From the NCBI RefSeq assembly GCF_023509015.1, contig NZ_CP094975.1, positions 2,923,501 to 2,987,500 on the forward strand: a stretch of 64,000 bases of DNA, in the 5' to 3' direction. The translations under genes and the position numbers were made by a program. This document shows positions 11,299-23,934 of the stretch, piece by piece. Origin of the DNA: Pseudomonas abieticivorans (GTDB lineage Bacteria > Pseudomonadota > Gammaproteobacteria > Pseudomonadales > Pseudomonadaceae). Below the pieces are notes generated by a model. It ran no database searches, was not told the origin of the DNA, and worked only from the letters and a program-made list of their open reading frames with translations. The first letter of the stretch is position 1, and each line of letters starts with the position of its first letter.

Positions 11299-11964
11299 AT
11301 GGCACCGCGCATAAAAACCCGAGAGCGCATCGTCTTCACCAGCCTGGAACTGTTCAACCAGCAAGGCGAACGCAGTGTCAGCACCAACCACATCGCCGCC
11401 CACCTGGAAATCTCCCCAGGCAACCTCTATTACCACTTCGCCAACAAGCAGGAAATCATCGCCGTGCTCTTTACCGAGTACGAGGCGTTGGTGGACAGTT
11501 TCCTGCGAGCGCCCCAAGGCCGCCTGGCGACCGTGGAAGACAAGCGCTTCTACCTGAAGGCTTTGCTGGCGGCGATGTGGAATTACCGTTTCCTGCACCG
11601 CGACCTGGAGCATCTGCTGGACAGCGACAAGGAACTTGCCGAGCGCTACCGGCGCTTTTCCCAGCGTTGCCTGGTGCAGGGGCAGTTGATTTACCGTGGC
11701 TTCATCGACGCCGGTATTCTGCGGATGAACCCGCAGCAGCTCGAAGCCCTGACGCTCAACGCCTGGATCATCCTGACGTCCTGGGTGCGTTTTTTGTGCA
11801 CCACCCGGGAAAATTCCGCGCATCTGAGTGAAGAAGCCTTCAAGCGTGGTGTCTATCAGGTATTGGTACTGGAGCTGGGGTTCGTTACAGACCAGGCCCG
11901 CGCCGCCGTCGACGCGCTTTGCGAAGAATTCAGCGTGCCATTGCTACAGGCACTCGAACAGTAA
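11299..11964 (+). CDS. laoR: TetR-family regulator LaoR
   Basis: This 221-residue TetR repressor has an N-terminal helix-turn-helix (residues ~8-50, with VSTNHIAAHLEISPGNLYYHF) and a C-terminal ligand-binding domain of the TetR_C type. The start at 11299 gives the usual MAPRIKTRERIV N-terminus; the frame stays open upstream to an alternative start near 11194. It is divergent from laoCBA and likely represses it. In the P. aeruginosa lao system LaoR is the repressor, relieved by long-chain fatty compounds. That effector is carried over from the family and is not visible here. It is followed after 21 nt by the sulfurtransferase gene. Confidence 0.85.
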   Translation: MAPRIKTRERIVFTSLELFNQQGERSVSTNHIAAHLEISPGNLYYHFANKQEIIAVLFTEYEALVDSFLRAPQGRLATVEDKRFYLKALLAAMWNYRFLHRDLEHLLDSDKELAERYRRFSQRCLVQGQLIYRGFIDAGILRMNPQQLEALTLNAWIILTSWVRFLCTTRENSAHLSEEAFKRGVYQVLVLELGFVTDQARAAVDALCEEFSVPLLQALEQ

Positions 11965-11985
11965 ACATGACCTAGGGAGGCTGCC

Positions 11986-12843
11986 ATGCCCATTGCGCAA
12001 CTGATTAGCCCCCAGCAACTGGCTGCTCGCATCGAGAAGCAACCGGAGCTGGTGATACTGGATTGTCGTTTCGCCCTGGAAGACCACGATTATGGCCAGC
12101 GCAGCTATGCCGAAGGGCACATTGCCGGCGCGCGTTTTGCCGACCTTGAGCGCGACCTGAGCGGCAAGATCGTCAAGGGCGTGACGGGGCGCCACCCGCT
12201 GCCGCAACCGGGGCATCTGATTGAGCGATTGCAGGCCTGGGGCATTAACAACGACAGCGAGATCGTGCTGTATGACGATGCCCCGGGTGCCTTTGCCGCA
12301 CGGGCCTGGTGGTTGCTGGCCTGGCTGGGCAAGCGCGATGGCGTCTACCTGCTCGATGGCGGCCTCAAGGCGTGGCATGCCGCGGGCCTGCCACTGAGCC
12401 TGGATGCTCCGCCCACTGCCCTCGGGCACTTCACCGGCAAACCGGACTCCAGCATGGTGGTGACCGCTCACGACTTGCAAGGCCGCCTGGGCCAACCGGA
12501 CCTGACCTTGCTCGATGCCCGCGCCCTGCCGCGTTTTCGCGGTGATGTGGAGCCCTTGGACCCGGTGGCCGGGCATATCCCAGGCGCGCAGTGCGCGACC
12601 TTTACCGAGAACCTTGGCGCGGACGGGCGTTTTCTGCCGGCCGATAAACTGCAGCAGCGTTTTGCCGAGAAATTGGGCAGCCGCCCGCTAGAAAAACTGG
12701 TCGCCTATTGCGGTTCAGGGGTGACGGCGTGTCACAACCTGTTCGCCCTGTGCCTGGCCGGCTACCCATTGGCACCGTTGTACGCAGGCTCCTGGAGTGA
12801 ATGGGTGACTGACGCCCATCACCCGGTCGCCACCGGCGACTGA
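11986..12843 (+). CDS. sseA: 3-mercaptopyruvate sulfurtransferase
   Basis: This 285-residue protein has two rhodanese domains: an inactive N-terminal one (~1-140) and a catalytic C-terminal one (~155-280). The active-site loop is CGSGVTA with Cys242, the signature of mercaptopyruvate rather than thiosulfate sulfurtransferases (which have CRKGVT). An AGGGAGG ribosome binding site lies 8 nt before the ATG. The enzyme transfers sulfur from 3-mercaptopyruvate to thiol acceptors or cyanide in the cytoplasm. It follows laoR on the same strand, but no functional link is evident. Its 3' end overlaps the convergent hydrolase gene by 25 bp. Confidence 0.9.
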   Translation: MPIAQLISPQQLAARIEKQPELVILDCRFALEDHDYGQRSYAEGHIAGARFADLERDLSGKIVKGVTGRHPLPQPGHLIERLQAWGINNDSEIVLYDDAPGAFAARAWWLLAWLGKRDGVYLLDGGLKAWHAAGLPLSLDAPPTALGHFTGKPDSSMVVTAHDLQGRLGQPDLTLLDARALPRFRGDVEPLDPVAGHIPGAQCATFTENLGADGRFLPADKLQQRFAEKLGSRPLEKLVAYCGSGVTACHNLFALCLAGYPLAPLYAGSWSEWVTDAHHPVATGD

Positions 12844-13844
12844 GCCATCAGCCAGGCCGGGATGCGCCGCTCCAGGTAATAGCCGGGGCGGCTCAGCGAG
12901 CCGTCGACGAAGCCGACGTGGCCACCCTTGCCGTGCAGCTCGAACGTCGTGCTGGCCGACAGCTCGTTGGCGGCCGGCAAACTGTGGGCGAACACGAAAG
13001 GGTCGTCGGCGGCCTGGATGATCAGCGTTGGCGTGCGGTTGTCGCCCAGGTAATAGCGGCTCGACGAGCGTCGATAGTAGTCGTGCGCATCGAGGAAACC
13101 GTTCAATGGCGCGGTGACGCGGCCGTCGAAATCCCAAAAGGTGCGCATGTTCTCCAAAGGGCCAAGCCGGTCGAGCGTAGCCAGGCCGGCAGCGTGGCCC
13201 TCATGCCGGAAACGCTGCTGCTTGTCTTTCACGTACACCAGCATCTGACGCATGAAGTGGGCCTGGTAAACCTTCGAGAACCCTTGGCCGATGCGGTCGG
13301 CACACTGGTCCAGGCGGAATGGCACCGATACCGCCACCGCGCCTTGCAATTGGCTACCGGTGCCGCTCTCGCCCAAGTGCTTGAGCAGGATATTGCCGCC
13401 CAGCGAATAACCCACCGCGAACAGTGGCGCCATTGGCCGTGATGCTCGCAAATGGGCGATCACTTCGGCCAGGTCTTCGCTGGCGCCGGAATGGTAACTG
13501 CGCGCCAACAGGTTAGGCTCGCCCGAGCAACCCCGCCAATTCACCGCGACGCTGGCCCAGCCCCGCACGGCGAGGGCCTGTTGCAGGCCGGCGATATAGG
13601 GTGAGTTGGACGAGCCGGTGAGGCCATGCAGCACCGCCACCAACGGGCGCTCGGCGTCACGCGGGCCATGCCAGTCCAGGTCGAGAAAGTCACCATCGGC
13701 CAGCCACAGCCGTTCGCGTTGCCTGTCCAGATGCACGGTTTTACGCCACAACGGCCCCCATAGGGTTTGCAGGTGGGCGTTGCCCAGGCCAAGGGCTGGG
13801 CGAAATGCGAGACTGGCGTCGGTTTGGCCGTAGAGCGTCGTCAC
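12819..13844 (-). CDS. YheT-family alpha/beta hydrolase
   Basis: This hydrolase of about 341 residues has the YheT family motifs HLQTLWGPL near the N-terminus, HGLTGSSNSPY (oxyanion region), WRGCSGEPN, the nucleophile elbow GYSLGGN, then DDPF (acid) and GGHVGFV (base His). The GTG start at 13844 is favoured because GGAAG lies 8 nt upstream. The open frame extends to a TTG at 13886. Its substrate is unknown; relatives are short-chain esterases. The tail-to-tail overlap of 25 bp with sseA leaves no space for a terminator. Confidence 0.85.
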   Translation of the reverse strand: MTTLYGQTDASLAFRPALGLGNAHLQTLWGPLWRKTVHLDRQRERLWLADGDFLDLDWHGPRDAERPLVAVLHGLTGSSNSPYIAGLQQALAVRGWASVAVNWRGCSGEPNLLARSYHSGASEDLAEVIAHLRASRPMAPLFAVGYSLGGNILLKHLGESGTGSQLQGAVAVSVPFRLDQCADRIGQGFSKVYQAHFMRQMLVYVKDKQQRFRHEGHAAGLATLDRLGPLENMRTFWDFDGRVTAPLNGFLDAHDYYRRSSSRYYLGDNRTPTLIIQAADDPFVFAHSLPAANELSASTTFELHGKGGHVGFVDGSLSRPGYYLERRIPAWLMAQSPVATG

Positions 13845-13910
13845 GGATAAAGCTTCCAAAGTGTTTGCCTGCCTACGGTGCCACAACGCCAGCGCGCCGT
13901 GTCGAGCTTT

Positions 13911-15245
13911 TTATCGGTCCGCCAGCTCCGGCAATGGCTGCTGGGGGGCGTCGGGCCCGATGCTGAAGTACAGCAGTTGATCGGCATCGAAGTGGCGTTG
14001 CAGTGCGGCGCGGATGCTTTGCGGGGTCAGGGCCAGCAACTCGACGACAAACTGCTGCGCAGTGTCGAGGGGCAAGTCGTGGCTGCCGATGATTTGCAGT
14101 TGCTCCATGATCTGCTGGTTACTGGCAGTTTGCAGGGGGTAACGGCCCAACAGGCCGGCGCGCACCTGTTCGAGTTCTTCGGTGGTTGGGCCGTCGCGCA
14201 GAAAATCCCGAAGCATGTTTTCCACCAGGTCTTGGGTTGCGTCGTTGTACTGGGCCCGGGTATTCCAACTCAGGGTCCAGTGGCCACTGGCCAATAGTTG
14301 GGTCAAGCGTGAATAGGCGCCATAGGTCAGGCCGCGTTTGACTCGCAGCTCCTGCATCAAGCGCGCCTCCAAGCCGTTTGGATCGCCAAAGATCATATTG
14401 GCCACGGTCAGGGCCACATGGTCCGGGTCGGCGCGTGAGATGGCGGGCAAGGTCAGGATCACCGATACGTCGGCACCGGGCGCGTCGAGGTGGATGACTT
14501 CGGCGCCCGGCCAGGCAACTGCGGGCAGGGGCGTCAGTGCAGGGCTATCGGGTAGTTGCGCAACCAGGTCTGCGATCATGGCCTCGGCCTCGCTGCGACT
14601 CAGGTCGCCCACCAGGCTGATGGTCAGGTTGGCTGCACCATAGCTGCGCTGATGAAACTCACGTATCTGTTCCAGGGTAACGACCGCAAGGCCGGCCTCG
14701 GTGCCAGTGCGTGAGTGTTCGTAGGGGTGGCGCTGGTAGAGCTTGCGCATCAGGGCATCGGACAGACGTTTGGCGGCTGATCGCTGTTGGCTTTTTACCA
14801 GGTTCAGTGCCTGGCCACGGATCTGCTCCAGGGCGCTCGCGGGTAGCGTCGGGTTGCCGACCACCTGTGCCAGCAGGGCGACGGCAGCGTCTCGCTTGGC
14901 CGGCGCACTGAGGCTGCGCAGGCCAACGGTGGAAAAGTCGCGGCTGACGCTATTGGTATACTCCGCCCCCTGATCTTCGAAGGCAGTGGCCAACTGCTCG
15001 GCATCGACGCCGGCAATGCCCTCGTTGAGCATGCCGTTGGTGAGCAGCGCCAGCCCCGGCGTAGTGCCGTCGCGGCTGCTGCCGGCGACGAAATCCAGCT
15101 TGATTTCAAACATCGGGATTTCGTGGGTTTGCACGAACAGTACTCGCGCACCCCGGGCCTCCCAACGCTGGATGTCCATGACCCGGTGCGCGGCAGTGGT
15201 GCCGTGAAAATCTACCAGCGAGGTGAGTGAGTGCAGGTTATTCAT
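13911..15245 (-). CDS. M16 peptidase family, non-catalytic subunit, no signal peptide
   Basis: This 444-residue M16 protein lacks the HXXEH zinc motif: the equivalent position reads LTNGMLNEG (~68-76). It keeps the substrate-binding R/Y pair in KRGLTYGAY (Arg304, Tyr308). This is the pattern of the inactive partner in heterodimeric M16B peptidases. It has no signal peptide, unlike its paralogue at 18742-20202, so it should be cytoplasmic. Its start overlaps the stop of the catalytic partner (15238-16497) by 8 nt, as in the exported pair, so the two should assemble as a heterodimer. Substrate is unknown. It belongs to an M16 island between rsmD and yheT. Confidence 0.85.
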   Translation of the reverse strand: MNNLHSLTSLVDFHGTTAAHRVMDIQRWEARGARVLFVQTHEIPMFEIKLDFVAGSSRDGTTPGLALLTNGMLNEGIAGVDAEQLATAFEDQGAEYTNSVSRDFSTVGLRSLSAPAKRDAAVALLAQVVGNPTLPASALEQIRGQALNLVKSQQRSAAKRLSDALMRKLYQRHPYEHSRTGTEAGLAVVTLEQIREFHQRSYGAANLTISLVGDLSRSEAEAMIADLVAQLPDSPALTPLPAVAWPGAEVIHLDAPGADVSVILTLPAISRADPDHVALTVANMIFGDPNGLEARLMQELRVKRGLTYGAYSRLTQLLASGHWTLSWNTRAQYNDATQDLVENMLRDFLRDGPTTEELEQVRAGLLGRYPLQTASNQQIMEQLQIIGSHDLPLDTAQQFVVELLALTPQSIRAALQRHFDADQLLYFSIGPDAPQQPLPELADR

Positions 15246-16497
15246 GGCTGTTCTCCTTGGGTGTCAGGTATCCGGTTGTCAGGCGCTCACGCACGAAAAA
15301 GCGCTGCGCTACTGCTTGAATGTCTGCGGGGCGAACCTGGGCGAGGTCGTTTTGCTGGCTGTCGAGCAACGACAGCGGCAGACCGCACGCAGCCAGTTGA
15401 CCCAGTTGCGCGCTTTGGTATTCAAGATTGTCGCTGGCGTAGACCTGTGTGGCGGTCAGTTTGGTCTGCGCCCTCGCAAGCTCCTGTTCGCTGGGTGGGT
15501 CGGCCTTGAGGGCCTCCAGTTCACCCCACAAGGCGCTTTCGGTGGCCGAAATGTCGTCGCTGGGATGCACGGTGATGCGAAACAGCTGATCGCCGCGGGC
15601 ATAGGCCGTGTAATCGGCACTGGCGCTGGTGATGACTTCCTTGCCTCGCAGCAGCCGGCTGAAAAGCCTTGAACCGATACCCTCGGCCAGCAGGAAGCGG
15701 GTCAGGCGCAGAGCGTTGAGGCTGCGCACCTCGGTCGAGGTGCCGTGGCTCGGGACGTTGAAGGCCAGCGACAAAGTAGGGCTGGCTTGCGGCAGTTTCA
15801 GCGTGAGGCTGCGCTGGCCGAAACCGTCGGGCTCTTGCGGACGTTTCCTGACCGGCAGTTGGCTGCGGGCCAAGGTGCCAAAATGCCGTTCGACCAGAAT
15901 TTTCACGGCGCTTGCCTGAACATCGCCGCACACCACCAGGGTGGCGTTGTTGGGGGCATACCAGTTGCGGTACCAGTGCTGCAGGTCCGTGACGGTCATG
16001 CTGGCCAGGTCAACGGCCGTACCGATGGTGGGGGTGCGATAGCTGCTGTGGGCAAAGCCTTGCGCCGTCACCGCCTCATGCAACCGTGCGGCAGGCATGT
16101 GATCAACGAGAAGGCTGCGTTCGGCCTTGACGACTTCGATTTCCCGGGTGAACACCTGCGCTGCCAGCGTGGCGGTGTGCATCGTATCGCTGGCTATTTC
16201 CAGCACCGGCTCCAGCCTGGCTGCGGGCAGCAACTGATGGAAGACCGTGGCGTCTTCGCTGGTAAAGGCGTTTGCGCTCGCGCCCATGCGTTGCAGTAGT
16301 CGTGAGTATTGGCCCTCTGGCAGTTTGCTGCTGCCGGAAAACAACAAGTGCTCCAGGGCATGGGATAGCCCGGACTGGCCCGGGTACTCGTAGCTGGCGC
16401 CCACGTGGTACCACAACTGGGTACTGACCACGGGGGCGCGGTGGTCTTCCTTGACGATGACGCTCAGGCCATTGTCGAGTGCAAAGGTATGGCGCAT
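15238..16497 (-). CDS. M16 zinc peptidase, catalytic subunit, no signal peptide
   Basis: This 419-residue M16B peptidase has an intact zinc site: HALEH at residues 46-50 (ligands His46, His50; general base Glu49) and a third ligand Glu126 in KAERS, exactly 76 residues after His50 as in the family. It starts directly with the peptidase fold (MRHTFALDNGLSVIVKEDHR) and has no signal peptide, so it is predicted cytoplasmic, in contrast to the exported paralogue at 20195-21550. It overlaps its non-catalytic partner by 8 nt. The ribosome binding site AAAGGACA lies inside a hairpin with a T-run between hairpin and ATG. It may process a peptide; no precursor gene is visible nearby. Confidence 0.87.
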   Translation of the reverse strand: MRHTFALDNGLSVIVKEDHRAPVVSTQLWYHVGASYEYPGQSGLSHALEHLLFSGSSKLPEGQYSRLLQRMGASANAFTSEDATVFHQLLPAARLEPVLEIASDTMHTATLAAQVFTREIEVVKAERSLLVDHMPAARLHEAVTAQGFAHSSYRTPTIGTAVDLASMTVTDLQHWYRNWYAPNNATLVVCGDVQASAVKILVERHFGTLARSQLPVRKRPQEPDGFGQRSLTLKLPQASPTLSLAFNVPSHGTSTEVRSLNALRLTRFLLAEGIGSRLFSRLLRGKEVITSASADYTAYARGDQLFRITVHPSDDISATESALWGELEALKADPPSEQELARAQTKLTATQVYASDNLEYQSAQLGQLAACGLPLSLLDSQQNDLAQVRPADIQAVAQRFFVRERLTTGYLTPKENSHE

Positions 16498-16503
16498 AAA
16501 AAA

Positions 16504-16534
16504 TGTCCTTTGTGAGTGAGGTTCACAAGGACAC
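16504..16534 (-). promoter_or_regulatory. Leader hairpin enclosing the ribosome binding site
   Basis: On the minus strand TGTCCTTGTGA pairs with TCACAAAGGACA (one bulged A) around a 7-nt loop. The Shine-Dalgarno AAAGGA is inside the 3' arm and six T residues follow before the ATG at 16497. The structure could block ribosome access, or act as an attenuator because of the T-run. A homologous hairpin precedes the gene at 16712-18040. Confidence 0.6.
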
Positions 16535-16570
16535 TGTCGGCTTATCGCGTGTTGGCGGTGCGGTAGTTAA

Positions 16571-16696
16571 TTAGCCGCGTTGCCATAAGGCGTAATGCAC
16601 TTGGCCGGCTTTTTTCTCGCGATGCAGGCGCCAAGTGGCCGGCAACTCGAGGCTGGAGGGCGGGGTTTCGCTTTTGGTGTAGATCCATGCCCACCA
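16571..16696 (-). pseudogene. Relic of a second rsmD 3' end
   Basis: Read on the minus strand, this segment encodes about 41 in-frame residues ending in a stop. They match the C-terminus of RsmD (intact copy at 18149-18742), for example WIYT.SETPPS.LELPATWR and LHREKKAGQV.YALWQR. By eye, 17 of the first 40 codons differ, 13 of them synonymously, with no indel or internal stop. That is unlike neutral decay of an in-place copy and suggests that both ends evolved in working rsmD genes of different lineages. Upstream of the match the similarity stops abruptly. Confidence 0.85.
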
Positions 16697-16711
16697 GCTG
16701 TATCGATTTTT

Positions 16712-18040
16712 TTACTCGTGAGCTAAAGGCGGCAACGGTTGCTGGTCAACGGTTGGGCCCATACTTGTGTACAGCAGTTGGTCCATGACGTAGTGGCGAT
16801 TCATTGCCGCCACGATGTCGTGTGGCGTTAATGCCATTAGTTCGCGGGCAAACCGCTCAGGGGTGTCCAATGGCAGGTCGTGAATGGCGATGGGTTGGAG
16901 CAAGGTGTTGATATGCCAATGGGAAACGGTGTGCAGTGGGTAACTACCCAGCAAGGCGCTACATGCTTGCGCCAGTTCCTCGGCGGTTGGCCCATCACGT
17001 AAAAAATCCTCAAGCATGCGGGTAAGCAACTGGCGGCTGGCTTCTCTATATTGCTCGCGAGTACGCCAGTTGATCGACCATTCTCCTACAGTGCCGAGCT
17101 GGTGCAGTGTGCTTGAAGGGCGCTTGTACAGGTTGCGTTTGATGTGCACTTCACGCATGAGGCGGGAGTTCTTGTCCCCACTGTTGCCGAAAATGTGATT
17201 CGCAACGGTCAGCGCCACATGGTCAGGGTGGGCGCGATTGACGGAGGGAAATGTAATCATCCCAGTCATGCCCACTGTTGGCTCTTCGTAATGTTGTGCA
17301 TCAGGCCCGGGCCATACTGGAGCGGGCAGGGCCGCTAGCTTGGGGCTGGCGGGAAGCTGCGCAATGATCGTATTGATCATGGCTTGGGCATCATCCCGGC
17401 TCAGGTCGCCCACCAGGGTAACGGTGAGGTTGCTAGCCCCGAAGTTCTCATGATGAGCGGTTCGAACCTGTTCGAGCGTGCGTGCTGCCACCTCGGTGGA
17501 GCTACCGCCAGGGATATTGAAATAAGGATGGCCGTTGTAGATATGTTTCGTTTGGAGCGCATGGAACCGCGTGCCTGGCAGGCTTTCCTCTTTTTGCCAA
17601 AGGCCCACCACTGCCGTCTGCATCTTGTTGAAGCTGTCTGCTCGCAGGCTTGGGCGCCCGACCACCTGAGCGAGCAGCGATACTGCGGCGTCGCGCTGTA
17701 GGGGGGCACTTGAAAATTGCAGGCCAATACACGACAGGTCCGCAGTGTTGTTGCTCCTGTACTCAGCGTTCAGTTCCTTGAAAGCGCTGGCCAGTTGCTC
17801 GGCGTTCATCTCGCTTATGCCCTCGTCGAGCATGCTATTTGTAAGTTTTGACAGCCCTGGGTGTTCACCATCGCGGCAACTGCCTGCAGCAAAGTCCAGC
17901 CTGATGGTAACCAAGGGTTCATCGTGGGTTTCGGCGAACAGCACGCGGGTGCCCTCAGCTGTTTTCCAGCGCTGAAGGTCCAGGTGACGATTCGCTGTAT
18001 CTACGTCAAGGATGTTTTTGAAAGCGGGTGTGATGTGCAT
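16712..18040 (-). CDS. Orphan M16-like non-catalytic subunit, degenerate
   Basis: This 442-residue protein is a paralogue of the non-catalytic M16 subunit at 13911-15245 (shared LTN.ML.EG, AVSLLAQVVG and LTVTLVGDLSR-type motifs). It has no HXXEH and has also changed the substrate-binding motif: where the paralogues read KRGLTYGAY it reads KRNLYKRPS (Arg302 kept, Tyr replaced by Lys306). The start at 18040 follows AAGGA; a GTG 12 codons upstream is the alternative. No catalytic partner lies beside it, and its leader resembles that of the catalytic gene at 16497, which suggests that a partner was deleted. It is flanked by intact rsmD and the rsmD relic. It may be decaying or may have taken on another role. 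Confidence 0.75.
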   Translation of the reverse strand: MHITPAFKNILDVDTANRHLDLQRWKTAEGTRVLFAETHDEPLVTIRLDFAAGSCRDGEHPGLSKLTNSMLDEGISEMNAEQLASAFKELNAEYRSNNTADLSCIGLQFSSAPLQRDAAVSLLAQVVGRPSLRADSFNKMQTAVVGLWQKEESLPGTRFHALQTKHIYNGHPYFNIPGGSSTEVAARTLEQVRTAHHENFGASNLTVTLVGDLSRDDAQAMINTIIAQLPASPKLAALPAPVWPGPDAQHYEEPTVGMTGMITFPSVNRAHPDHVALTVANHIFGNSGDKNSRLMREVHIKRNLYKRPSSTLHQLGTVGEWSINWRTREQYREASRQLLTRMLEDFLRDGPTAEELAQACSALLGSYPLHTVSHWHINTLLQPIAIHDLPLDTPERFARELMALTPHDIVAAMNRHYVMDQLLYTSMGPTVDQQPLPPLAHE

Positions 18041-18045
18041 ATCGA

Positions 18046-18076
18046 GTGTCCTTGTGAGTGGGGTTCGCAAGGACAC
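18046..18076 (-). promoter_or_regulatory. Leader hairpin enclosing the ribosome binding site
   Basis: On the minus strand GTGTCCTTGCGA pairs with TCACAAGGACAC (11 of 12 bp) around a 7-nt loop. The Shine-Dalgarno AAGGA lies in the 3' arm, 8 nt before the ATG at 18040. Both arms and the loop resemble the leader at 16504-16534, but no T-run follows here. Translational control by an RNA fold is a plausible inference. Confidence 0.6.
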
Positions 18077-18148
18077 TTTGGATCTGTGGCTCGATGACGG
18101 TGCGGTACATATTTATAGGCGGTAAATATTAACGCCCAGCACGGGGGG

Positions 18149-18742
18149 TTAGCTGCGCTGCCACAGCGCGTAGTACACCTGGCCGGCCTTTTTTTCGCGG
18201 TGCAGGCGCCAGGTGGCGGGCAGCTCTAGCGCCGAGGGCGGGGTTTCGCTCTCGGTGTAGATCCAGGCGCGTTCGGCCAGCCATTGCTTGGCTTCAAGCA
18301 GGGCGCAGGCGGCCGGCAACAAGTTCTGGTGGAACGGCGGGTCGAGGAATACCAGGTCAAAGGCCGTGGGCGTCTGGGTTTCCAGGTAACGTAGGGCATC
18401 GGTCTGCATCAGTTGCCCCACAGAGCACTTGAGCAGATCCAGGTTGTGCCGCAGGCTGGCGATGGCCTGGCCGTTGCTGTCCAGCGCCAGGCCCAGGCTG
18501 GCGCCACGCGAAAGCGCCTCAAGGTACAGCGCGCCGCTACCGGCGAACGGGTCCAGCACCTTGGCGCCGGCGACGTAGGGGCTGAGCCAGTTGAACAACG
18601 TTTCACGCACCCGGTCCGGGGTCGGGCGTAGGCCCGGGCCGTCGGGAAAGCTCAGCTTGCGGCTGCGCCATTCGCCGCCAATGATGCGCAGTTGGCCCTG
18701 ACCGTTATGGGCTTTGACAGGTTTTGCAGAGGGGCTGGCCAT
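18149..18742 (-). CDS. rsmD: 16S rRNA (guanine966-N2)-methyltransferase RsmD
   Basis: This 197-residue SAM-dependent methyltransferase modifies G966 of 16S rRNA. It shows RIIGGEWRSRKL near the N-terminus, RPTPDRVRETLFNWL, the SAM motif VLDPFAGSGALYLEAL (~62) and the catalytic motif LVFLDPPFH (~128). Its start codon shares bases with the stop of the M16 gene upstream, so the exported M16 pair and rsmD form one operon, as in other Pseudomonas. A diverged second copy of its 3' end lies 1.5 kb downstream (16571-16696), which marks this gene's tail as the boundary of the inserted M16 genes. Confidence 0.95.
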   Translation of the reverse strand: MASPSAKPVKAHNGQGQLRIIGGEWRSRKLSFPDGPGLRPTPDRVRETLFNWLSPYVAGAKVLDPFAGSGALYLEALSRGASLGLALDSNGQAIASLRHNLDLLKCSVGQLMQTDALRYLETQTPTAFDLVFLDPPFHQNLLPAACALLEAKQWLAERAWIYTESETPPSALELPATWRLHREKKAGQVYYALWQRS

Positions 18743-20202
18743 TAGTGCTCCGGAACACCCAGGGGTTGGTCCTGGGGTTTGTCAGATGGGGGTGGCAGCG
18801 GTTTCTGGTCGACCGTCGGCCCTGCGGTGACGATGACCAGCTTGTCGGCATTGAGGTGGCGGTTCATGGCCTCCTTGACTTGCTCGACGGTCAGCGCCTG
18901 GGATTGCTGCATGAAGTCTTCCAGGAAGCTCAATGGCAAATTATAGAAGCCAATGGCGCCCAGTTGGCCGACGATGCTCGAATTGCTGGCCGTGGACAGC
19001 GGGAAGCTGCCGGCCAGCTCGCGCTTGGCGTTGTCCAGCTCCTCTTGGGTGGGCCCGGTTTTCAGGTAGTCACGCAGGATGTCCTGGACCAGCTTGAGGG
19101 TGCCCTCGCTCAACTCCGCGCGGGTTTGCAGGCTGATCATGAACGGGCCTTTGGCTTGCATCGGGGTGAAACCCGAGTAGATGCCGTAGGTCAGGCCGCG
19201 TTTTTCACGCACTTCGCTCATCAGGCGGGTACCGAAGGTGCCACCGCCGAGGATCTGGTTGCCCAGCGACAGGGCGGCGTAGTCCGGGTCGGTGCGGTCG
19301 ATGCCCAATTCGGCGAGCAGCATGGTGGTCTGCTTGGACGGGAACTCGATGTGGGTCAGGCCTGGTTTGGGCTCGGCCGGCTGGCTGATCTTGGCCAGGG
19401 TCGGGCCCTTGGGCAGCGCCGCCGACACGTGTTCAGCGATTTTTTCCGCGTCGGCTCGGCTCAGGTCGCCGACCAGGGCGATGACGGTATTGCCAGCAGC
19501 GTAGGCGCGGTTGTGGAACGCGCGCATCTGCGCGACGGTGATGCCGGGCACGGTCTTGGCGGTACCTTCGCTGGGGTGTGCGTACGGGTGGGTTCCGTAC
19601 AGGCGATCGAACAGCTCAAGCCCGGCCAGCTTGCCCGGGTTCTGCTTCTGGTATTCGAAGCCAGCCATGATCTGGTTTTTGATGCGCGCCAGTGAATCGG
19701 CCGGGAAGGTGGGTTTGCCGACTACCTCGGCGAACAGCTTGAGTGCCGGCTCGCGTTTGTCGGTGGCGCTCAGGCTGCGCAGCGAGGCCACGGCCATGTC
19801 ACGGTAGGCGCCGTTGCCAAAGTCTGCACCCAGGCCTTCGAAGCCCTTGGCGATGGCCTCGACGTTCTTGCCGGCCACGCCTTCATTGAGCATGGCGTTG
19901 GTCAGCACGGCCACGCCCGGCACCTTGTCGTCCTGGCTGCTGCCGGCGGCGAAGGTCAGGCGCATGTCGAACATCGGCAACTCGTGAGCCTCGACAAACA
20001 TCACATTGGCGCCCTGGCTGGTTTTCCAGGTCTGGATGTTCAGGTCGCGGTGGCTGGGGGCCTTGCCGTCCAGCTCTTTCAGGGTTTGCAGGTTGTCCAG
20101 GTGCTGGGGCGCGGCGTCATCGGCTCGGGCCGGGCCGGCTACCATGACCGCCAGCAGCGCCAGGCCCAGTAGGGCGTGGCGGGGTGTGTTTCGCTCAGTC
20201 AT
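18742..20202 (-). CDS. Exported M16 family non-catalytic subunit
   Basis: This 486-residue protein has a signal peptide (HALLGLALLAVMVAGPARA, cleavage ~27). It has the inactive M16 pattern: no HXXEH (LTNAMLNEG in its place), but the substrate-binding pair in KRGLTYGIY (Arg335, Tyr339) is intact. The start at 20202 overlaps the stop of the catalytic subunit by 8 nt; the frame extends 10 codons further up without a better start. The C-terminal tail is Pro-rich. It is the partner of 20195-21550 in a periplasmic heterodimeric peptidase, equivalent to the P. aeruginosa pair next to ftsY (PA0371/PA0372 by recollection). Confidence 0.9.
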   Translation of the reverse strand: MTERNTPRHALLGLALLAVMVAGPARADDAAPQHLDNLQTLKELDGKAPSHRDLNIQTWKTSQGANVMFVEAHELPMFDMRLTFAAGSSQDDKVPGVAVLTNAMLNEGVAGKNVEAIAKGFEGLGADFGNGAYRDMAVASLRSLSATDKREPALKLFAEVVGKPTFPADSLARIKNQIMAGFEYQKQNPGKLAGLELFDRLYGTHPYAHPSEGTAKTVPGITVAQMRAFHNRAYAAGNTVIALVGDLSRADAEKIAEHVSAALPKGPTLAKISQPAEPKPGLTHIEFPSKQTTMLLAELGIDRTDPDYAALSLGNQILGGGTFGTRLMSEVREKRGLTYGIYSGFTPMQAKGPFMISLQTRAELSEGTLKLVQDILRDYLKTGPTQEELDNAKRELAGSFPLSTASNSSIVGQLGAIGFYNLPLSFLEDFMQQSQALTVEQVKEAMNRHLNADKLVIVTAGPTVDQKPLPPPSDKPQDQPLGVPEH

Positions 20203-21550
20203 GAGCCGATTCCTCTGGCAGTACATGGGCAACGCTCAGGCGTGACCGGGTGAAATAAGTGCGCGCGGCATTCTGGATGTCCTGGGGCGTGACGCTCTTG
20301 ATGTCATCCAGCTCGGTGTCCATCAGCTTCCACGACAGGCCCACGGTTTCCAGTTGGCCAATGGTGGTGGCCTGGCTGCTGATCGAGTCGCGCTCGAACA
20401 CCAGGCCGGCGATCACCTGTGCCCGCACGCGCTCCAGCTCTTCGTTGGACGGCGGGGTGGTCTTGAGCTGGTCGAGCAAGCGCCAGAAGCCTTTCTCCAC
20501 GTCCGCCAGGGTCTTTTTCTTCTGGGTGTTGGGCGTGGCCGACAGCAGGAACAGGCTGTCCCCGCGGGCAAACGGGTTGTAGCTGGCCGAGGCGCCGGTG
20601 ACCAGTTCTTCGCCACGTTCCAGCTGGGTAGACATGCGCGCGCTGTAGCCGCCGTCGAGCAGGGCCGAGATCAGGCGCAGGGCTTGGGCGTCGCGGGGGT
20701 TCTTGGCGGTAGCCAGGCCCGGTACGTTGAAGCCGTACATCACGCTTGGCAGTTGGGTTTTCACGTGCAGAGTGGTCAGGCGCTCACCCGGCTCGGCCAG
20801 CTCCAAGGGCAGCTTGCTGGGGGGCGTGGCGCGCTTGGCGATAGGGCCGAAGAAGCGTTCGGCCAGGCCTTTGACCTGGTCGACGGTGACGTCGCCCACC
20901 ACCACCAGCGTGGCGTTGTTGGGTACGTACCAGGCCTGGTACCAGGCGCGCAGCTCCTCGATCTTCATGCGGTCCAGGTCCGCCATCCAGCCGATGGTCG
21001 GCGTGTGGTAGCCGCTGGCCGGGTAGGCCATGGCCTTGAACATCTCGAAAGCCTTGGCACCTGGCTTGTCGTCGGTGCGCATGCGCCGCTCTTCCTTGAT
21101 TACCTCGATCTCGCGGCTGAACTCATCGGCCGGCAAGCGCAGGGTGGCCATGCGGTCGGCTTCCAGTTCCATGGCGACGGGCAGGCGGTCAGCGGCTAGC
21201 ACTTGATAGAAGGCGGTGTAGTCGTCGCTGGTGAAGGCGTTTTCTTCGGCGCCCAGGTCGCGCAGCACGCGGGAGGCTTCACCGGGGCCCAACTTTTCGC
21301 TGCCTTTGAACATCATGTGTTCCAAGGCATGGGACAGGCCAGTCTGGCCGGGTGTTTCGTAGCTGGAGCCGACCTTGTACCAGATTTGCGAAACCACCAC
21401 GGGAGCGCGGTGATCTTCACGCACCACGACCTTCAGGCCGTTGTCCAGGGTGAACTCGTGCGTGGGCTGCGGATCGGCCGCCAGGGCGGCAAATGGCAGG
21501 CAAACAGTGCTGATCAGCAGGCCAGCGGCGCGGCGGGCTAGAGCATTCAT
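20195..21550 (-). CDS. Exported M16 zinc peptidase, catalytic subunit
   Basis: This 451-residue peptidase has a signal peptide (cleavage near residue 25, after PFAALA) followed by the M16 fold. The zinc motif HALEH is at residues 74-78 and the third ligand is Glu154 in KEERR, 76 residues on. It forms a two-gene unit with the non-catalytic subunit, translationally coupled by an 8-nt overlap, and rsmD follows. It should degrade or process peptides in the periplasm; the substrate is not known. A GC-rich inverted repeat (GCCCGC with GCGGGC, around 21573-21599) lies in its leader. The gene is divergent from ftsY, with 231 bp between them. Confidence 0.92.
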   Translation of the reverse strand: MNALARRAAGLLISTVCLPFAALAADPQPTHEFTLDNGLKVVVREDHRAPVVVSQIWYKVGSSYETPGQTGLSHALEHMMFKGSEKLGPGEASRVLRDLGAEENAFTSDDYTAFYQVLAADRLPVAMELEADRMATLRLPADEFSREIEVIKEERRMRTDDKPGAKAFEMFKAMAYPASGYHTPTIGWMADLDRMKIEELRAWYQAWYVPNNATLVVVGDVTVDQVKGLAERFFGPIAKRATPPSKLPLELAEPGERLTTLHVKTQLPSVMYGFNVPGLATAKNPRDAQALRLISALLDGGYSARMSTQLERGEELVTGASASYNPFARGDSLFLLSATPNTQKKKTLADVEKGFWRLLDQLKTTPPSNEELERVRAQVIAGLVFERDSISSQATTIGQLETVGLSWKLMDTELDDIKSVTPQDIQNAARTYFTRSRLSVAHVLPEESAHD

Positions 21551-21781
21551 TCGTTTTTAAACCTGTAGGACTGCCCGCTTGGTCTTAGCGTAGGCGGGCG
21601 AGGAGGTGCTAGGATACTGATCCGGTTACCTGGCGACCATGCCTGGTTGAAGAGAAGACCTGAAGTCTCTCAACAAAATGTTGCGCATGAACGAGCCGGG
21701 GAAAAAATAGTCTGTTCTGCGTTATTAGAATTTTCCGACGCGCTGCACTGGCCCGTCGCTACCTTGAGATAGCCGTCTTCC

Positions 21782-23934
<2,153 letters not shown>

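Follow-up and report, generated by a model that had tools for sequence, protein, structure and literature searches.

Displaced rsmD 3' ends beside M16 peptidase genes in Pseudomonas abieticivorans and its relatives suggest insertion at a gene end

We analyzed a 64,000-nucleotide stretch of the Pseudomonas abieticivorans genome (RefSeq assembly GCF_023509015.1, contig NZ_CP094975.1, positions 2,923,501 to 2,987,500; hereafter the window). The interval between rsmD, which encodes a 16S rRNA methyltransferase, and the hydrolase gene yheT carries three M16 peptidase genes and a second copy of the rsmD 3' end. The gene order on the minus strand is A1 - B1 - rsmD - IG1 - B2 - relic 1 - IG2 - A2 - B3 - yheT, where A and B are M16 subunit genes, IG1 and IG2 are leaders, and relic 1 is the displaced rsmD end. 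See Table 1 for all coordinates. A single M16 gene, B2, lies between the intact rsmD tail and relic 1, and the A2-B3 pair lies beyond relic 1. Our best reading, which we hold with slightly better than even confidence, is that DNA with its own tail integrated into the rsmD 3' end by a single crossover. A simple assembly duplicate is unlikely because the 6.7-Mb genome is a single contig and the two tail copies differ by 18%.

Self-BLAST aligned relic 1 with the end of the intact gene at 98 of 120 positions (E 3e-28). Beyond the rsmD stop, the leaders IG1 and IG2 remain similar as far as the start codon of the following M16 gene. In searches of the window's whole genome (G000), relic 1 was the sole other strong match to the tail, and the remaining matches were 34 nt or shorter. 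Relic 1 has no indels and no internal stops. Its 39 coding codons comprise 22 that are identical to the intact tail, 13 that differ synonymously, and 4 that differ non-synonymously (E5K, A12S, Y31H, and S38G, tail to relic); the stop is common to both. S12, H31, and G38 of relic 1 are found in working RsmD proteins, and K5 is found in none of 60 other tails. The ratio of non-synonymous to synonymous divergence (dN/dS) was 0.062/1.32 by the Nei-Gojobori method (NG86), over 39 codons only and with dS near saturation.

We compared these counts with a neutral simulation of 4000 runs, in which the intact tail was the starting sequence and took synonymous changes only, the relic was unconstrained, and 22 nucleotide differences were placed with a transition bias of 3. 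On average, 12.0 residues changed, and a stop codon arose in 63% of runs. Because four or fewer changed residues appeared in 0 of 4000 runs, the sequences indicate that most of the divergence between the tail and relic 1 arose within working rsmD genes. Judged from the same codons, relic 1 lost function late relative to its split from the intact tail. A neutral in-place duplicate would take up amino-acid changes as freely as synonymous ones, which is not what relic 1 displays. An earlier note on this DNA had read the segment as an in-frame RsmD C-terminus running to the stop, with 13 synonymous and 4 non-synonymous changes and no indel or stop. Those counts are correct for 39 codons plus the stop. 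Its reasoning against a silent in-place duplicate was sound, and the simulation likewise bears out its view that both tails evolved mostly inside working rsmD genes. A non-functional partial duplicate could also have been kept similar to the intact gene by gene conversion, as the tails are close together and alike over 120 nt. However, recent conversion should leave few, neutrally spread differences, and four or fewer changed residues among 22 differences never occurred in the simulations, the model of which did not include conversion. We regard this explanation as very improbable.

The intact tail and relic 1 have the protein motif LELPATW in common, and none of the 60 other tails has it; therefore, the tail lineages could be closely related or the tails could be paralogues. 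This motif would suit an in-place tandem duplication of an rsmD-A-B unit, with a second rsmD that was long used and recently trimmed to its last 40 codons, and such a history would explain the synonymous bias with no transfer. Furthermore, B1 immediately precedes rsmD, B2 likewise precedes relic 1, and B3 and B2 are sisters in the B tree (100/97, on long branches, which by the program's own warning make such placements unsure). B2 and B3 are 48% identical with a dS of 1.85 (NG86, near saturation), of the same order as the 1.32 of tail and relic. The two B genes and the two tails may have diverged together in two lineages, the relic itself having hardly decayed, which counts in favor of the single-crossover reading. 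Against duplication, no second full-length rsmD was found: of 57 genomes searched with the protein, 56 gave one match each and one gave no match, and second DNA matches in 43 genomes were at most 55 nt long, the window's relic excepted. Duplication also fails to produce new rsmD end codons together with a displaced tail of native type, as described below for genomes G005 and G172. The leader before the M16 gene in the G005 interval has no match upstream of that genome's A1 (E 1e-3), and the window's leaders have only 7-base matches to the region upstream of A1; tandem duplication of A1-B1-rsmD was rejected on these grounds as the origin of the interval's M16 genes (slot genes). Overall, we consider tandem duplication improbable.

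Next, we examined the rsmD-yheT interval in 118 genomes of the genus, giving 119 loci with the window. This sample is non-random, as most genomes come from the top of a list ranked by rsmD similarity, and the first 60 also favor loci with downstream M16 genes. A yheT match was found downstream of rsmD in 118 of 119 stretches, the exception being G018. An M16 pair is present in 24 loci (window included), a single gene in one, and none in 94; among the first 60 loci, 17 have M16 genes, in addition to the window. The earlier note had suggested comparing the interval in close relatives for sites with and without these genes. M16 genes are present in 25 of 119 loci, mostly as other, diverged pairs, which makes the interval a site of turnover. 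On a B1 tree of 54 rows, 18 of them M16-bearing, M16 presence needs at least 13 changes. The nearest genomes by rsmD identity and by the B1 and A1 trees, in which the window's B1 and A1 cluster with theirs, are G086, G387, G287, and G051, and none has M16 genes in the interval. The rsmD tree weakly (84/42) puts the window with G023, G043, and G249, the intervals of which also have none. Slot A and slot B genes form separate long-branched groups, except for those of G005, which fall among A1 and B1. In the 17 genomes with both genes, the slot-B and B1 trees have 6 of 14 splits in common. An alignment search with B3 and B2 in the contigs of named genomes gave 24 loci at up to 45% identity, a set from which the window's own records may be left out.

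Other cargo was noted by eye in some intervals, including a candidate HigA-like antitoxin (L127, G384), an AAA-like ATPase (L126, G326), and a UDP-glucose dehydrogenase-like gene (L128 and L180, G291 and G280). Possible carriers of A2 were sought outside the chromosome. The 212 plasmid records matched were all below 60% identity (32-37% for the 15 listed), the 19 phage records were also all below 60% (21-29% for the 10 listed), and no carrier was found in either.

We searched the 118 intervals with 119 tails on the plus strand. Displaced tails were observed in five of the 118, namely the window, G005, G229, G172, and G092. The minus-strand control gave one weak match (E 0.001) and reversed tails gave none; a sixth plus-strand match in G015 (E 0.001) was no better than the minus-strand control and was not counted. 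The cargo consists of M16 genes in the window, G005, and G172, and there is none in G092. In G229 (L181), Pfam identified a DUF4135 piece, which we take to be LanM-like, and a GNAT acetyltransferase gene beside a decayed tail of about 100-130 nt. Because this cargo is a LanM-like piece and a GNAT gene, tail displacement is not tied to M16 genes. The B1 tree includes four of the five loci (all but G229), and on it they require four separate changes. The relics of the window, G005, and G229 are longer than those of G172 and G092, which are bounded by a 13-bp core, TTGTGGCAACGTA. This core comprises the codons for L-W-Q-R plus one base and was picked by eye, so tests on it are post hoc. The well-conserved native sequence starts 1 nt ahead of the core in G172 and 3 nt ahead of it in G092.

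As far as sequence comparison can tell, the mechanism is clearer in G005 than in the window, since its displaced tail is of its relatives' type and its intact rsmD ends in new codons. The displaced tails of G005 and G172 end in MAEIAG and MTEIAG, the C-terminus type of the M16-free G088 and G361, and their intact rsmD genes end in STEISS and ITITLS. From the core rightwards, the displaced G005 tail matches G264 and G058 at 58 of 60 nt, including all 33 coding positions, and G088 at 52, and the intact gene matches G264, G058, and G088 at only 35, 34, and 35. G088 groups with G005 in the B1 tree, and all three genomes are M16-free in the interval, as are the 14 genomes that best match the G005 stretch to the right of the core.

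The core is located either within the end of rsmD or, displaced, ahead of yheT. Among 40 genomes, 12 contain the exact 13-mer, with 13 occurrences in total, 12 of them at the rsmD-yheT locus. A match of at least 11/13 precedes yheT in 14 of the 25 M16 loci and in 12 of the 94 loci without M16 genes (Fisher p 2e-5, not corrected for kinship), and mononucleotide-shuffled intervals reach that level in 5 of 5800 cases. The window itself has a 12/13 match (relic 2). For the sequence to the left of relic 2, the alignment with G086 outscores all 1000 shuffles, and over the whole junction G086 scores 50 against a maximum of 41 in 300 shuffles; G387 (40, shuffle maximum 49) and G287 (27, maximum 41) did not beat their shuffles. 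By eye, the G086 interval resembles a deleted cassette, with a leader-like stretch, a short signal-peptide-like ORF (open reading frame), and the core. An older insertion could be shared by the window and G086. If relic 2 is taken as a tail at all, the window probably holds three, namely the intact one, relic 1, and the 13-bp core before yheT. The core could persist because it serves in recombination or acts as a cis-element of yheT, or it could merely have survived. It may also be a conserved yheT promoter; the distance to yheT varies, however, and several species lack the core. Exact copies of 23-24 nt of the rsmD end are also found elsewhere in G033 and G023. That of G033 lies in an ORF that looks like a nonribosomal peptide synthetase and reads DYALWQRS, and that of G023 codes for the same words; by eye, these were judged to be chance.

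In the single-crossover reading, relic 1 would be the displaced 3' end of a gene, rsmD, that still functioned until recently. Donor DNA from another Pseudomonas lineage would have brought an rsmD 3' end of its own with a leader and one or more M16 genes behind it. One crossover within the 3' end of rsmD, possibly close to the L-W-Q-R codons, would have given the recipient rsmD a new tail and left the former tail at the right edge of the insert, where the 120-nt relic of the window does form the far-edge repeat of the target-gene end that islands have. A circular or tandem donor could do this in one step; a linear donor and one illegitimate join would also do. For the window, we envisage probably two events, the first bringing A2-B3 and leaving the 13-bp core before yheT, and the second bringing the B2 piece and leaving relic 1. 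The earlier insertion is suggested because A2-B3 lies beyond relic 1 and because of the probable third tail. The A partner of B2 would later have been deleted, as B2 directly follows a leader that elsewhere precedes A genes. Support for this mechanism comes mainly from other species, and for the window we infer the donor, the direction, and the number of events. The earlier note's cassette, bringing a new tail and pushing the old one downstream, is seen more clearly in G005 than in the window for which it was proposed. Its claim that the two tails bracket the inserted M16 DNA holds for B2 and not for A2-B3. The same relic with M16 genes in all Pseudomonas, which would have spoken against it, was not seen across 397 other genomes and 118 intervals.

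The main alternative is plain homologous recombination, in which linear DNA of a relative with M16 genes already at this place would have entered through homology on one side and an illegitimate join just after B2 on the other, with no circle or special site. The diverged M16 pairs at this interval in many species and the 13 changes in M16 presence on the B1 tree agree with it. By itself, this process leaves unexplained why the native stretch starts at the L-W-Q-R core in G172 and G092 and why a tail is displaced beside unrelated cargo in G229, and we think it somewhat unlikely. Several results weigh against the single-crossover reading, and the first two of them also speak for linear recombination. 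No recombinase was seen between rsmD and yheT in the window, where the long ORFs are M16 genes by the ORF list and Pfam, in line with the earlier note's remark that no integrase is present. Relic lengths vary, from about 120 nt in the window to clear matches of 34 nt in G172 and 25 nt in G092, a spread as compatible with homologous recombination as with a fixed site. Our sample does not include the donor. The window's type of A2, B2, or B3 was found in 0 of 397 other genomes at the thresholds used, with up to four candidates scored per genome in the rows listed. Eleven of 25 M16 loci lack a core of at least 11 (4 of the 11 have 10), 12 M16-free loci have one, and the variant TTGTGGCAAGTTA in 10 of the 14 core-bearing M16 loci may go back to one old event. 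A tail phylogeny like that suggested in the earlier note, run on 117 nt, gave p = 0.269 in the approximately unbiased (AU) test for the intact tail and relic 1 as one clade, and the placement of the two lineages is not settled by it. Left of the core in G005, G264 and G088 are closer to the intact gene (24 versus 19 of 28), G058 is equal to both (24 and 24), and the M16-free G071 and G351 are closer to the relic (26 versus 21); the M16-bearing G178 and G046 match the relic best (27 versus 23). The left side gives no clear chimera, and the whole displaced tail of G005 may be one native-type tail. Because these matches are mixed, a crossover exactly at the core is not demonstrated in G005.

Searches of 398 genomes with B2 (E 1e-100) and with A2 (E 1e-145) found the window only, at strict limits that exclude diverged slot genes. 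No recombinase was recognized by eye among ORFs of at least 90 aa in 10 other, M16-free intervals, of which two ORFs were run against Pfam. Mosaic scans of rsmD and yheT against relatives gave no clear breakpoint. A bolder proposal is that the rsmD 3' end is a true site-specific insertion point, with TTGTGGCAACGTA as the crossover site, for small recombinase-less cassettes such as M16 pairs and LanM/GNAT pieces, which bring an rsmD tail of their own and a structured leader, are moved by a trans-acting enzyme, and repeatedly rewrite the C-terminus of a 16S rRNA methyltransferase. We find this distinctly unlikely.

All three M16 genes of the window insert are plain M16 by Pfam. At the level of genes, A2 and B3 have the makeup of an M16B heterodimer, as A2 with its HALEH motif is adjacent to B3, which lacks HXXEH and keeps, in LRVKRGLTY, the residues we take to be the R/Y pair. 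The closest solved relatives of A2 by sequence are 4nnz, 3amj, and 3ami, the latter two being zinc peptidase entries, presumably of a Sphingomonas enzyme. A1 and A2 are 45% identical, and B1 and B3 are 42% identical. By eye, no signal peptide was seen at the starts of A2, B3, and B2, and one is present in the A genes of 14 of the 17 other M16 loci compared. Because they start without a signal peptide, the A2-B3 pair probably works in the cytoplasm. B2 has VHIKRNLYK where VREKRGLTY is expected, so its R/Y pair is lost; R and Y are kept in the 18 other rows compared (B1, B3, and 16 slot B genes). With no R/Y pair and no A gene between IG1 and itself, B2 does not have the M16B heterodimer arrangement. 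It keeps 84 of 124 conserved B columns, compared with 103 in B3 and with 88 and 89 in the lowest other slot rows (G076 and G003). Its GC content at third codon positions, 0.64, is the lowest of seven genes measured (0.75-0.84 in the others). The B2 product is probably inactive as a peptidase partner and either decaying or a decoy for A2, which makes B2 a candidate dead or regulatory partner. According to the review PMC12731061, the R/Y pair completes the active site, and its M16C section adds that mutating either residue abolishes activity.

The leaders of the window, IG1 and IG2, are related, with a local alignment z of about 12 (WIN1-WIN2). A 57-nt piece of IG1 folds at -18.5 kcal/mol, a value from a single fold of the real sequence without a shuffle control. 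A hairpin that lies at the probable ribosome-binding site or overlaps it is found in front of many slot M16 genes, and ten related leaders show two-sided stem changes at several pairs (GC/UA, GC/AU), with some cells unpaired. RNAalifold found no common structure for five P-type leaders aligned with the window's two, and single leaders do fold. The leader hairpin is a possible translational control element. In several leaders, a TA-rich stretch ending in TACCGC was seen by eye between rsmD and the hairpin, and it is palindromic in G019 and G033 (GTGCGGTAAATAGTTACCGCAC); it may be an operator or promoter. The leaders of G005 (L110) and G172 (L139) are clearly related (local score 82, a value reached in none of 200 shuffles), despite A genes that are far apart (72% versus 32% identity to A1), as if genes had been exchanged behind one leader. 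In G005, slot A and slot B share a single 935-codon open frame and may form an A-B fusion.

The remaining features of the locus are listed in Table 1. No tRNA was found within the window, PADLOC gave no match for A2, B2, or B3, and an Rfam search of positions 11500-23500 gave five matches with E values up to 1, each scoring far short of its gathering threshold. The neighboring ftsY has a long Glu-Pro repeat near its N-terminus (22011-22300).

Table 1. Features of the rsmD-yheT locus in the window
Feature	Position	Strand	Basis or remark
A1, canonical M16 subunit A gene beside ftsY	20195..21550	-	ORF; signal-peptide-like start (by eye)
B1, canonical M16 subunit B gene	18742..20232	-	ORF
Intact rsmD	18149..18742	-	TIGR00095 RsmD above cut-off; 83% DNA identity to G086 over gene
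Intact rsmD tail, last 120 nt	18149-18268	-	Would be the "new" tail in the preferred reading
IG1 leader hairpin, GTGTCCTTG...CAAGGACAC	18046..18076	-	Carries likely B2 ribosome-binding site
B2, M16 subunit B gene, 442 aa, no adjacent A gene	16712..18040	-	ORF, Pfam
Relic 1, displaced rsmD 3' end, 39 codons + stop	16571..16690	-	81.7% over 120 nt; simulation
IG2 leader hairpin, homologue of IG1 located before A2	16504..16533	-	Leader alignment
A2, M16 catalytic subunit (HALEH)	15238..16497	-	PF00675 + PF05193
B3, M16 non-catalytic partner, overlaps A2	13911..15245	-	ORF, Pfam; R/Y pair kept
Relic 2, TTGTGGCACCGTA, 12/13 to rsmD-end core (L-W-Q-R codons)	13874..13886	-	Possible older displaced tail
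yheT-like alpha/beta hydrolase	12819..13886	-	PF00561; true start probably inside ORF

Small integrase-less cassettes appear to reuse the end of a housekeeping gene, and old tails left as scars might reveal the order of insertion. If the crossover is site-specific, there would be a non-autonomous system and a hidden recombinase to look for. If plain homologous recombination is responsible, a gene end alone would serve as a landing strip, altering the C-terminus of a conserved enzyme. Among the open-licence PMC papers listed in our literature searches, we found no report of rsmD as an insertion site of this kind.

Several known systems can be compared with the locus. The canonical A1-B1 pair of this genome, located between ftsY and rsmD, belongs to the same family as A2-B3 and has the same A-then-B order; the slot genes differ in forming separate long-branched groups, apart from those of G005. 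Like the Sphingomonas heterodimer SPH2681/SPH2682, as presented in the M16B passages of PMC12731061, A2 has HXXEH and stands beside a non-catalytic B3 with the R/Y pair. However, A2 and B3 lack, by eye, the signal-peptide-like starts of most slot pairs compared, and B2 has neither an adjacent A gene nor the R/Y pair. An island that restores the gene end it enters usually brings its own integrase; in the present element none was found. Salmonella genomic island 1 (SGI1) inserts at the trmE 3' end, and one of the dusA islands gives dusA a new 5' coding sequence and N-terminus, as stated in the passages of PMC8409611 on these elements; PMC12884075 adds that islands in many cases reconstitute the gene they enter. 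Here, the target is rsmD, the cargo is one to three genes, and the repeat length varies between species. In spite of these differences and of the missing integrase, the window's locus works like the SGI1/trmE and dusA islands described there, in that the incoming DNA supplies the working end of the target gene and imperfect repeats stand at both edges of the insert.

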